Shown here in pieces: positions 4,601 through 10,600 of a stretch of DNA of 64,000 nucleotides. Made by a program: the position numbers and the translations under genes. The notes under the pieces were generated by a model, which was given only the letters and a program-made list of their open reading frames with translations, did no database searches and was not told the DNA's origin. The stretch is taken from contig NC_089274.1 of assembly GCF_963678975.1 (NCBI RefSeq), positions 45,910,075 through 45,974,074 of the forward strand, read 5' to 3'. The DNA comes from Dysidea avara (taxonomy: Eukaryota > Porifera > Demospongiae > Dictyoceratida > Dysideidae). The first letter of the stretch is position 1. Each line of letters begins with the position of its first letter.

Positions 4601-7600
4601 GCAACCTGCAAGTGATGTGGCACATCTTAATAGTACCGCATAAACTTGTGTGTCATCTGATATTTGTATGGTTGTTGTGACTGCTGTCTTATTTCATGCT
4701 CTGCAACAAGTACTATCTTGTGTATGTTTCTCTCCTATCATACCTCTTCTACACACATCATCACTACCACTCCAGCTCCTATCACTCTGACAGGTCCTAA
4801 TGTCATTACCAGTTAGCTCATAACCAGTGTTACATGTGAAACTACAAGTGTCTTCATAGGAAGGAACTCCATCATCTCCCAGTGAACAAGTGATCATTCC
4901 ATTATTAGGATCAGTAAGTAATGGACAAGGAACTACAATAGTTAGAACAACATGTGTATGTACATGAAGTGATATTATTTTTATACTAAGCAGCAGTTGA
5001 TGTGTGTTAAAATGTATCATGCAGAACACTGTAGTGTATATTCCCATAATAAAGTGTAACTGCCAAAGCACTGCAGCTAAAAGGTATCATAGAAATAGTC
5101 TTCATGACAAAACTTACCTTCACAGAAACGTCTTAATGTCAACTCTAGCCTTAAAACCAAAATCACCAATATTGAATTTTTAAACAATTGCCAAATCAGG
5201 TTTTGATCTGCCTAACCGCCTGCCTGACCAGGCTAAAGGCTGAATGATGTATCTTACGACCACCCTTGTTTGCCACAATAACAAACCCACTGGTAGCATG
5301 AGTGTCTGTCCTCTGTGTCTTGTCTTTACCTTTCATCTTACAAGTCGTCATCCCCCAAGGAAACCACATCAATACATTAATTTTCTGTATTTACATGTGT
5401 GTAAATACAGAAAATTATTAATTATTTGAAGACACCACAAAACTATTAATTATTTGAAGCATGCAATGATAGAGCCAACACAGACCACTGTGATCACGTC
5501 CCATAATGATCAAGCTGCTCTAAAAATGATCATAAAACAGAGCATGGAAACCACTACTCTAACAATGTAGCTGAATTATAACAATTACCTTTGCTTCAAA
5601 AAACAAGGTACAGTGACCATTCTCCTTGTGTGCGCCATCAAAGTATCACTCAAGATCGCCAGCAAGATCATGATACTCTAATAAAGCAGCCACCCTAATA
5701 CATTTGTCAGTACTGATATTATATTAGAACAGTAACACATGTTATCACAGCTTTGCTGCTACAACAAAAACAGTAAACAAACTAGAGTTTTGTAAAATCA
5801 GGGAGAGCAATGTCAAAGTACAGATAGTTATGTTGTAATACCATCACATCCATATCTCTTACTTCACTGATTACTTTTATAGATACCTGCGTACTTCATT
5901 TTTAAATTAATAATTTCTAGAAACTTTATATCTTTAGGCCAGATATTGATACCGTATAGGAATGCTGCGTGATAGCACTGAAACAACTAATTTTAATAAT
6001 TACATGGTGTAAAATGGCAAACAAATCTTAATTTTATTTAGATGTAATACCTCTTCTACACACATCATCACTACCACTCCAGCTCCCATCACTCTGACAG
6101 GTCCTAGTATCACTACCAGTTAGCTCATAACCAGTATTACATGTGAAACTACAAGTGTCTTCATAGGAAGGGACTCCATCATCTCCCAGTGAACAAGTGA
6201 TCATTCCATTATTAGGATCAGTAAGTGATGGACAAGTAACTAGTATAATACAAATACATAACTTGTTATGTACAAGAATGAATAAAGGAATACCTCTACT
6301 ACACATGCTTTCAGTACCACTCCAGCTCCCATTACTCTGACAGGTCCTAGTGTCATTACCAGTTAGCTCATAACCAGTGTTACATGTGAAACTACAAGTG
6401 TCTTCATAGGAAGGGACTCCATCATCTCCCAGTGAACAAGTGATCATTCCATTATTAGGATCAGTAAGTAATGGACAAGGAACTACAATAGTTAGAACAA
6501 CATGTGTATGTACATGAAGTGATATTATTTTTATACTAAGCAGCAGTTGATGTGTGTTAAAATGTATCATGCAGAACACTGTAGTGTATATTCCCATAAT
6601 AAAGTGTAACTGCCAAAGCACTGCAGCTAAAAGGTATCATAGAAATAGTCTTCATGACAAAACTTACCTTCACAGAAACGTCTTAATGTCAACTCTAGCC
6701 TTAAAACCAAAATCACCAATATTGAATTTTTAAACAATTGCCAAATCAGGTTTTGATCTGCCTAACTGCCTGCCTGACCAGGCTAAAGGCTGAATGATGT
6801 ATCTTACGACCACCCTTGTTTGCCACAATAGCAAACCCACTGGTAGCATGAGTGTCTGTCTTCTGTATCTTGTCTTTACCTTTCATCTTACAAGTCGTCA
6901 TCCCCCAAGGAAACCATATCAATACATTAATTTTCTGTATTTACATGTGTGTAAATACAGAAAATTATTAATTATTTGAAGACACCACAAAACTATTAAT
7001 TATTTGAAGCATGCAATGATAGAGCCAACACAGACCACTGTGATCACGTCCCATAATGATCAAGCTGCTCTAAAAATGATCATAAAACAGAGCATGGAAA
7101 CCACTACTCTAACAATGTAGCTGAATTATAACAATTACCTTTGCTTCAAAAAACAAGGTACAGTGACCATTCTCCTTGTGTGCGCCATCAAAGTATCACT
7201 CAAGATCGCCAGCAAGATCATGATACTCTAATAAAGCAGCCACCCTAATACATTTGTCAGTACTGATATTATATTAGAACAGTAACACATGTTATCACAG
7301 CTTTGCTGCTATAACAAAAACAGTAAACAAACTAGAGTTTTGTAAAATCAGGGAGAGCAATGTCAAAGTACAGATAGTTATGTTGTAATACCATCACATC
7401 CATATCTCTTACTTCATTGATTACTTTTATAGATACCTGCGTACTTCATTTTTAAATTAATAATTTCTAGAAACTTTATATCTTTAGGCCAGATATTGAT
7501 ACCATATAGGAATGCTGCGTGATAGCACTGAAACAACTAATTTTAATAATTACATGGTGTAAAATGGCAAACAAATCTTCACTTTATTTAGATGTAATAC

Positions 7601-10600
7601 CTCTTCTACACACATCATCACTACCACTCCAGCTCCCATCACTCTGACAGGTCCTAGTATCACTACCAGTTAGCTCATAACCAGTATTACATGTGAAACT
7701 ACAAGTGTCTTCATAGGAAGGAACTCCATCATCTCCCAGTGAACAAGTGATAATTCCATTATTAGGATCAGTAAGTGATGGACAAGTAACTAGTATAATA
7801 CAAATACATAACTTGTTATGTACAAGAATGAATAAAGGAATACCTCTACTACACATGCTTTCAGTACCACTCCAGCTCCTATCACTCTGACAGGTCCTAG
7901 TGTCACTACCAGTTAGCTCATAACCAGTGTTACATGTGAAACTACAAGTGTCTTCATAGGAAGGAACTCCATCATCTCCCAGTGAACAAGTGATCATTCC
8001 ATTATTAGGATCAGTAAGTGATGGACAAGGAACTACAATATAATTAGTGTACACCATACAATACATTACTAATACATAAAGTGCCATGAACATTTTATCT
8101 ATATTTATATATTTATTTATTTAAAAGTTGCAGAAAGGAATTATGATTGCTCCCATATCAAAACACATGGTAGTGCGTTAAGAAAGCTGGCATGCCACAC
8201 CATGTGTATTTTGACAGAAAAAAAGGAAACACGATTTCCATGCATGCATGGCTCCTTCTCCAGAGTACACCAATCTTCACTATAGCTGTCCATCAGGTAG
8301 GGTAGTCCACACTTAAAGTCACACCAGAGATACTCTAATACAGCAGTCACCATGGGGTTACAAAGTGCACAAAAAGTGAAAACTAACTAGGATTTGAACC
8401 AGGGACCTCCACACCTAACACCCAGATTCTTAACCACTAAGCCACTGGATTATTCACTGTTCACCTTACTTTATTTCTGAGAAAATTCAAGTTTAAATTT
8501 AATTGTTTATAATTTCATAGATCTACTAATTAAAATTCTAGAACATTCAGCTGATCATCATAGCAGTACCTTTTAATGGCTTAAAAGTTGAACCACATAG
8601 TTATAAAAGAAAAATCAAAGAAGTATAAGGCCCCTATTTGGCGATTATTAGTTTCTAATCCAGTCTTTTCAATTATTATGATGTGGGCAGGAGGGCATTA
8701 CCATTAGGCCATTATAATATTGGCAGTGGATACTGAACCAAAAGTCAGTTCAATAAGCTGTACTGGCTATTGAACTGACAGTAAAACTTAGGCAAAAAAA
8801 GTTTCACTAAACAGAAAAAACCCCTACAAAACTCATCCAGGGCTCAAACCCTGGACTACTGGAGCTTTAGACAAGTGTGCTAACCACTGTGCTACTGCTG
8901 CTAGCTACCCACTACTCCTACTTTTCTATCTTATGTGTGTTACTCATGTAGTAATCTCAGTATACAGACGTAATCTAAAGGTGAAGAAAAAACCAAAACT
9001 GAACCCGACCCTAACGATAATGCTACTGCTACTTTTCACGTTCCCTAAAGTTGAATGCTTGGGGCAGCTACTAGACGCGTCCCCTAAATCTGAATACCGG
9101 GGCAACTACTAGGTGTGAAAATAAAAACCTTTCGGTTCAGTAACCACATCCTATAATATTAATATACTGATGTCCAAATTTTCTCCCACAAATTAACATT
9201 GGTTTTTATATGCAATCATGCTCTATTGACTTCATCATGGCGGGATTTCAGTTGAATGTTGAAACACTGTCGAAAATAGAATCCACTGCAGTGATTTTCC
9301 AAAGAAACAACAGTTATCCTGGTGATGCATAGTGCACTGTAGCATTAATAAAAAAATTTTAAAAATGCCATCATGTTTCAATACAAACTGTAATGGTTTG
9401 GTATCATGTGTTCTTCTGAGCATGCACAGAGTAAATAATGGCTACCATGCGGTAGCCTAAGAAGGATGCGGGAGGTGGATGAGAAACTAATAATCACCAA
9501 ATAGAGGCCTAAGTACATAATATTATGGTAATATAATTCATTTGAATATTATGTGATGATGATTAATACATGTATAACAACTATGATTCCAGTACCTCTT
9601 CTACACACATCATCACTACCACTCCAGCTCCCATTACTCTGACAGGTCCTAGTGTCACTACCAGTTAGCTCATAACCAGTGTTACATGTGAAACTACAAG
9701 TGTCTTCATAGGAAGGAACTCCATCACCTCCCAGTAAACAAGTGATTATTCCATTATTAGGATCAGTAAGTGATGGACAGGAAACTACAATAGTCAGAAA
9801 AACATGTGTGCATCAAATCAAGTCTCAAAACTAAGAAAACTCTTTCAGAAGTAAGGCTAAAATAAACTACTCAAATAGTTCGTTATTCATTCTAATCCAG
9901 TATTCAAAGCTTTGGGAGCAGATTTGATATTCTAGAAATGTGATAATTTCCTTTCCCATAATTTTAAGTGTTTGTGAATCAAATACATACAATTAGACTA
10001 TCTGTTTCTTTAAAAATTATTTGTTCCGTTAGCATTTAAAATATATTTTAGCTCTAAAAGCACAAATATTAAATTTTTAAACAATTGCCAGAAACTGATG
10101 TTTGGTCTGGCCATGAACCTGCCTGCCTGTCCGAAATCAAAGGCCAGAGACTAAATGATGCATTCTTTTGTATGCCACAATAACCAGCTCAATGGTAGCA
10201 TGTGCCTTTTGCAGTTATGATGAGTGTCTGTACTCTGATTTCATTTTTATTAATTTGTAAATTTACTGGGGAGAGCAGAATGCTAAAGAGCCTATAAGTA
10301 TACCCCCAACAATATATATATATATATAATATATACATGACACAAAGCACAAACTACAAAAACAAACAACTATAGCTACAAAACAGCTACAAAAAGAATT
10401 ATGCAAAATGATTGAGTTCAACAGAATGAAAAATTTTATGTGAATTACTACACTAGTATATTAAATTTTTTAAATTTACAATGTAGTAGGGATCCAAGCG
10501 ATAACATGTAGTGAAACAAGAGATGATCGAATGATGATATTACAGTGTAGGTCAGTGGGAAAATCCCTACATTGGCAGGTTATAACAATAATTTCAAAGT

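Follow-up and report, generated by a model that had tools for sequence, protein, structure and literature searches.

How does a gene that encodes a long row of look-alike CCP modules change the length of its ectodomain, and can a single such change still be traced in a genome? This question is raised by a stretch of 64,000 nucleotides from the sponge Dysidea avara (C3:45910075-45974074, hereafter “the window”), the minus strand of which carries two copies of one gene; a third copy is located at C3:45.50-45.54 Mb. Judging by its domains only, the gene looks like one for a receptor-like cell-surface protein, in which ten fixed CCP modules near the membrane would be followed, farther out, by a variable row of look-alike CCPs, each encoded by a single exon. 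An initial annotation of the window had noted that exons of this row in copy 1 recur at exactly +1550 bp, and had attributed the recurrence to unequal crossing-over within near-identical 189-nt exons, with exon 4744-4932 (here called X) as the recombinant. Our analysis retains the exchange and identifies a different exon, b1, as its product.

A 1550-bp duplication with a break inside an exon

The exons X, a1, b1, a2 and b2 (Table 1) are 189 nt long each, are preceded by AG and followed by GT on the coding strand, and have a frame that fits phase 1-1. Matches to the Sushi family (Pfam PF00084) were obtained for X (E = 1.4e-10) and b1 (E = 1.3e-11), and the scores of X (41.9 bits), b1 (45.1 bits) and the more distal exon e (42.4 bits) exceed the gathering cut-off of 20.7. 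The periodicity of the exons was borne out: positions 4740-6490 align with 6290-8040 at an offset of exactly 1550 bp, without insertions or deletions and with 28 mismatches over 1,751 positions, and identity is at chance level left of 4740 and right of 6490. The differences are distributed over X/b1 (11/189), the long intron I (10/1,118), a1/a2 (2/189), the short intron i (0/54) and b1/b2 (5/189). Since the homology extends from 4 bp outside the left exon edge to 8 bp outside the right one, the break lies inside an exon or within a few bases of it. The unit is present twice, i.e., there was one duplication and there is no longer series.

The hybrid exon is b1, of which the left third comes from b2 and the rest from X. 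Ten exon sites separate b2 from X, and b1 requires a single switch between them, being b2-like at eight sites (4748, 4756-4760, 4764 and 4800, in X coordinates) and X-like at 4806 and 4920. The flanks switch across the junction as well: the left flank of b1 is that of b2 (54/54 identical) and its right flank is that of X (200/200 identical). The junction lies inside sequence common to both parents, and a run of 113 nt that is identical in X and b2 (4807-4919) adjoins the switch. The left flank of X is shared with its counterparts Xp in copy 2 (94.0% over 200 nt) and X3 in copy 3 (93.5% over 200 nt), and so is its right flank (93.6% over 109 nt in Xp, 96% over 200 nt in X3), which places X at its ancestral position and makes 6294-6482 the junction. 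In trees of 39 exons, nt 1-60 place b1 next to b2 (98/92.8), a union of b1 and X being rejected (approximately unbiased (AU) test, p 0.023), and nt 61-189 place b1 next to X (96/93.3), where it is the union of b1 and b2 that is rejected (AU p 0.036); in a version with 24 rows, right-half support for b1 with X is 88/92, below the star limit. A phylogeny of exon halves, the same tree on both sides of the breakpoint speaking against a crossover, had been suggested in the initial annotation; the halves are discordant and the crossover is not refuted.

The two X-like sites of b1 also indicate a direction. Since the bases of X3 and Xp are C4806 and G4920, T4806 and A4920 of X, which neither of them has, were probably derived in X and then passed from X to b1. 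A4920 is also present in exon e3 of copy 3. This exon (L027 2867-3055) has an in-frame stop and may be dead. Intron I provides a relative date: units 1 and 2 differ from each other at 10 of 1,118 positions (0.9%) and from copy 3 at 33 and 34, respectively (3.0%), which makes the duplication ~30% as old as the split between copies 1 and 3. When polarised, four of the ten differences are assigned to unit 1 and five to unit 2, and one is unclear.

Table 1. Coordinates of the exons, introns and gene parts in the window.
Feature	Position	Strand	Remarks
Exon with transmembrane-like stretch and tyrosine-rich tail (NPSY, NPSY, NPAY, YEYI)	1049..1642	minus	from translation
Ten diverged, position-specific CCP-like stretches of copy 1	1752..3825	minus	contrast set
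CCP exon X	4744..4932	minus	left parent, not recombinant; flanks L (left) and I (right) ancestral
Long intron I, unit 1	4933..6050	minus	
CCP exon a1	6051..6239	minus	
54-bp intron i, unit 1	6240..6293	minus	identical to that of unit 2
CCP exon b1	6294..6482	minus	hybrid, left part b2-type, right part X; switch 6350-6356 (X coordinates 4800-4806)
Long intron I, unit 2	6483..7600	minus	
CCP exon a2	7601..7789	minus	
54-bp intron i, unit 2	7790..7843	minus	
CCP exon b2	7844..8032	minus	non-recombinant right parent; right flank R 72.7% over 66 nt to that of exon d
CCP exon c	9596..9784	minus	right flank common to copy-3 exon ac3 (L016 8641)
CCP exon d	18544..18732	minus	left region distantly a-like; right flank like b2
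CCP exon e	20325..20515	minus	left 110-112 nt a-type, rest strongly diverged
Gene copy 2 (part)	42368..47331	minus	94% identity to 1-5041; includes Xp (47037-47222)

A probable unequal crossover and its alternatives

Homologous unequal crossover inside exon b/X best explains the duplicated unit, and we put the probability of this reading at about 0.87. Exon b of one chromatid would have paired with exon X of the other, turning the plus-strand order L-X-I-a-i-b-R into L-X-I-a-i-b1-I-a-i-b-R, and since both edges of each exon are in the same phase (1-1), the reading frame would have been kept as two modules were gained. The b1 module would be a chimera, its b-type left part encoding the C-terminal part of the module (..TESMCSR) and its X-type right part the N-terminal part (PCPLLTDP..GND). 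The initial proposal of an unequal exchange within a near-identical 189-nt exon is supported, with a change in ectodomain length by two modules. That the break fell within an exon is likely due to exons being the main sequence that is alike at non-matching positions (~93%, vs. mostly unalignable introns), and exchange was probably possible only there for this reason. We infer crossover rather than another homologous duplication route; the gene is presumably expressed, and its module number may vary in the population. In copy 3, exon ac3 is bordered on the left by the flank of a (96.5% identical to that of a1, over 200 nt) and on the right by that of c (90%, also over 200 nt); exon and flank taken jointly, it is 91% identical to c over 757 aligned positions. 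This swap of flanks, such as an a-c exchange would produce, points to an event of the same kind as b1, perhaps in the losing direction.

Several observations weigh against the crossover. The exon offers ten informative sites only, and when nothing but exon order is considered, 2 of 45 arrangements come out equally clean. At 4780 and 4783, b1 matches c and not X or b2, and at 4865 it matches a1, which requires either mutations or a small conversion after the exchange. The AU p values are modest, with a breakpoint that was chosen after the sites had been seen, and the exon sites of ac3 show no clean single switch (PPQQPPPQQ).

That X itself arose by crossover between an a-type and a b-type exon, as originally thought, is very unlikely. 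The description of X as a-like at its left end and b1-like in the rest was accurate, and the breakpoint analysis that had been proposed for the exons found a single switch not only for b1 from b2 and X: judged by letters, X from a1 and b1 is equally clean, with one switch over 13 informative sites. However, the left flank L of X differs from the flank F of a, and the order L-X-I occurs in two other copies, where intron I is ~3% diverged, as compared to 0.9% between the units; in addition, three switches are needed when c instead of a1 is taken as the a-like parent, and the X-specific bases are not found in X3 or Xp. Turning to how the unit was doubled, replication slippage or microhomology-mediated joining at the exon, or breakpoints in the introns that were later tidied by exon conversion, are improbable: the joining mode is not directly visible and b1 has small conversion-like sites, but a break within 189 nt of ~95% identity, with unrelated flanks on both sides, is the pattern of homologous exchange. 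An assembly artefact, in which two haplotypes or a mis-join produced a false 1550-bp repeat, has to be considered for a single assembly, yet the exon at the junction is chimeric internally and each unit has private differences (the ten in intron I, polarised both ways), which makes it extremely unlikely.

Two further candidate causes were rejected. A 1547-bp piece of the unit was searched against the whole genome (550.8 Mb in 108 contigs), very common words being skipped, and the near-full-length matches were both units of the window and one at C3:45509399 (96%, nt 1-1516), ~400 kb away. Besides this match in copy 3, intron I was listed only with a nearby match of 142 nt at 71% and a short palindrome, and a transposon-borne unit was rejected on these grounds; with so few matches, the unit is unlike a dispersed repeat, within the limits of the search tool. 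As for inverted repeats at the junction, the sole perfect one found is a palindrome with 18-nt arms in the middle of the intron, present in each unit.

A possible wider pool of a-type exons

Exons of this type are not confined to the window. Most of them were found by likeness of their DNA, which favours like exons; 56 matches were reduced to 55 by removing one duplicate, and 47 of these were used for the comparison of flanks (eight more were left out). The half-exon trees in full used all 39 near-complete exons, the 24-row trees being hand-chosen, and the remaining 16 of the 55 are incomplete matches. For the site, permutation, bin-identity and ranking analyses, the diverged exons L028_1746 and L041_1992 were removed by hand, leaving 37 near-complete exons, 34 of which lie on C3 between 33 and 49 Mb and three on C19. 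Their mean pairwise difference is 0.067 (0.083 for the 39 exons, with a median of 0.069 in both sets), and the six exons from the window differ by 6.2% on average (15 pairs). For the ten fixed CCPs of copy 1, nucleotide identity has a mean of 63% and a maximum of 77% (45 pairs).

The likeness is concentrated in the middle of the exons. Both flanks are unrelated in 627 of the 666 pairs of the 37 exons (<50% ungapped identity over 60 nt, our own cut-off); scored in bins of 10 nt, the exons of these pairs have an identity of 0.74-0.90 over the first four bins, 0.96-0.99 at nt 41-140, 0.90-0.95 at nt 141-180 and 0.84 in the last bin, and chance level is reached no more than ~8 bp from the splice sites. 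In 560 pairs, dS averages 0.085 and dN 0.069. Variation at third codon positions is found chiefly in the first codon and in the five or six at the end. The exon closest to X is L028_1507, 285 kb away, at a difference of 2.6%, and X3 and Xp rank 6th and 21st of 36. Among nine pairs that share both flanks, four consist of exons that are mutually first (one of these pairs tied), and the other five do not.

The wide exon pattern suggests exchange that is limited to exons. Tentatively, and at somewhat less than even odds, the a-type exons could be a chromosome-wide pool of homology islands, in which ectopic conversion and unequal crossover take place only inside the 189-nt exons, leaving cores near-identical down to silent sites, ends variable and introns unrelated, and rewriting the number and the mosaics of outer modules in dozens of receptor-like genes. 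Three points count against such a pool: the likeness of half-exons showed no link to the flank on the same side (1,715 to 2,100 of 5,000 permutations were equal to or above the observed value), two array exons are strongly diverged (mean difference 0.23 and 0.22), and the exons were picked by likeness. It is doubtful that the wider likeness is due to recently copied exons that were inserted at new places in introns, or to nucleotide-level constraint, and not to conversion or crossover. Likeness that falls to chance so close to the splice sites would fit fresh copying, but fresh copies should be alike to the edge, whereas variable ends around a near-identical middle are expected of old exons that were homogenised mid-exon; and the other CCPs of the same gene, merely 63% alike, argue against copying and constraint.

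Exon e differs from c at 1 of 112 positions and then from the a-type consensus by 48 of 77 ungapped mismatches, and its right part is still distantly a-type related, since only 1 of 500 shuffles scores as high in a gapped alignment. A conversion tract between e and c was not significant (Fisher p 0.06, computed with 0/112, the true count being 1/112). With 40 of 609 candidates scored, the genome has at least 40 matches, e itself being one of them, that span 171 or more of the 191 nt of e, on C3, C4, C5, C6 and C19; of the 28 shorter matches, 22 break off at nt 109. The e-type exon looks like an old half-module chimera. A start of the a-type with a diverged end is also seen in L041_1992. Arrays of same-type exons occur in L041 (1516-2417) and L034 (1270-1928), with a spacing of 235-238 bp and short introns that are identical or nearly so; perhaps this is the same process at a smaller period.

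Comparable systems and the remainder of the window

The mechanism is already known, and the present case is an unusually clear one. Size alleles of the human complement receptor CR1 (CD35) arise by unequal crossover, and the long homologous repeats of CR1 are also a structural likeness: among solved structures, the best match of the array peptide is 2q7z (E 3.2e-81). In contrast to CR1, the unit here comprises two modules, the crossover lies within an exon that encodes a module, and the ten modules near the membrane are not involved; we do not assign the sponge protein to the CR1-like regulators of complement activation, a group marked by binding of C3b/C4b. Gene families with homogeneous stretches between paralogous copies, which undergo concerted evolution by gene conversion, have been described (PMC2720389). 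In our case, exchange would be limited to single 189-nt exons between mostly unalignable introns, which is partly shown, with one formal test negative. The Sp185/333 family of sea urchins is an immune family of high diversity, unstable and rich in repeats (PMC5103432), but it encodes other proteins, whereas the CCP gene has one module per exon. In the titles and opening lines of abstracts that were surveyed, no publication deals with this locus or with exchange restricted to the exons of CCP genes.

A change in ectodomain length is caught here as a directed and relatively datable event, with both parents and the hybrid still side by side. For the gene family, this provides a testable rule, according to which modules change in number and sequence by within-exon exchange, only exons being alike. 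If the number of units varies in the population, such changes in length might add to recognition diversity.

With our own profile, copy 1 (1752-20511) was found to have 18 CCP-like stretches, and copy 2 (44093-55637) to have 12. The ten fixed CCPs are 94-99% identical to their counterparts in copy 2. Between X and e, copy 1 contains the exons a1, b1, a2, b2, c and d, and the same profile found no counterparts of a, b, c or d in this interval of copy 2. A Pfam search with the exon that encodes the transmembrane-like stretch and the tail, and that comes after the ten fixed CCPs, gave no match above the cut-off.

A 31-bp repeat forms arrays of some 3.5-4 kb at corresponding places in copies 1 and 2 (14097-17897 and 50756-54291), and alignments in L012 and L018 overlap them. 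No match to the bacterial-type cellulose synthase family TIGR03030 was obtained, in a search that may miss genes split by introns and of which the controls were prokaryotic, with 11 of 14 positive; a tunicate origin of the DNA therefore receives no support. An open frame of 183 amino acids on the minus strand (31719-32267), for which a Pfam search up to E 0.1 returned no match, is conserved at the DNA level in the neighbouring stretches L009 and L013, and perhaps encodes an N-terminal domain of the receptor-like gene. Long tetranucleotide arrays are present at 11073-11428 (CAGG x89) and 23260-23494 (CTGC x59).
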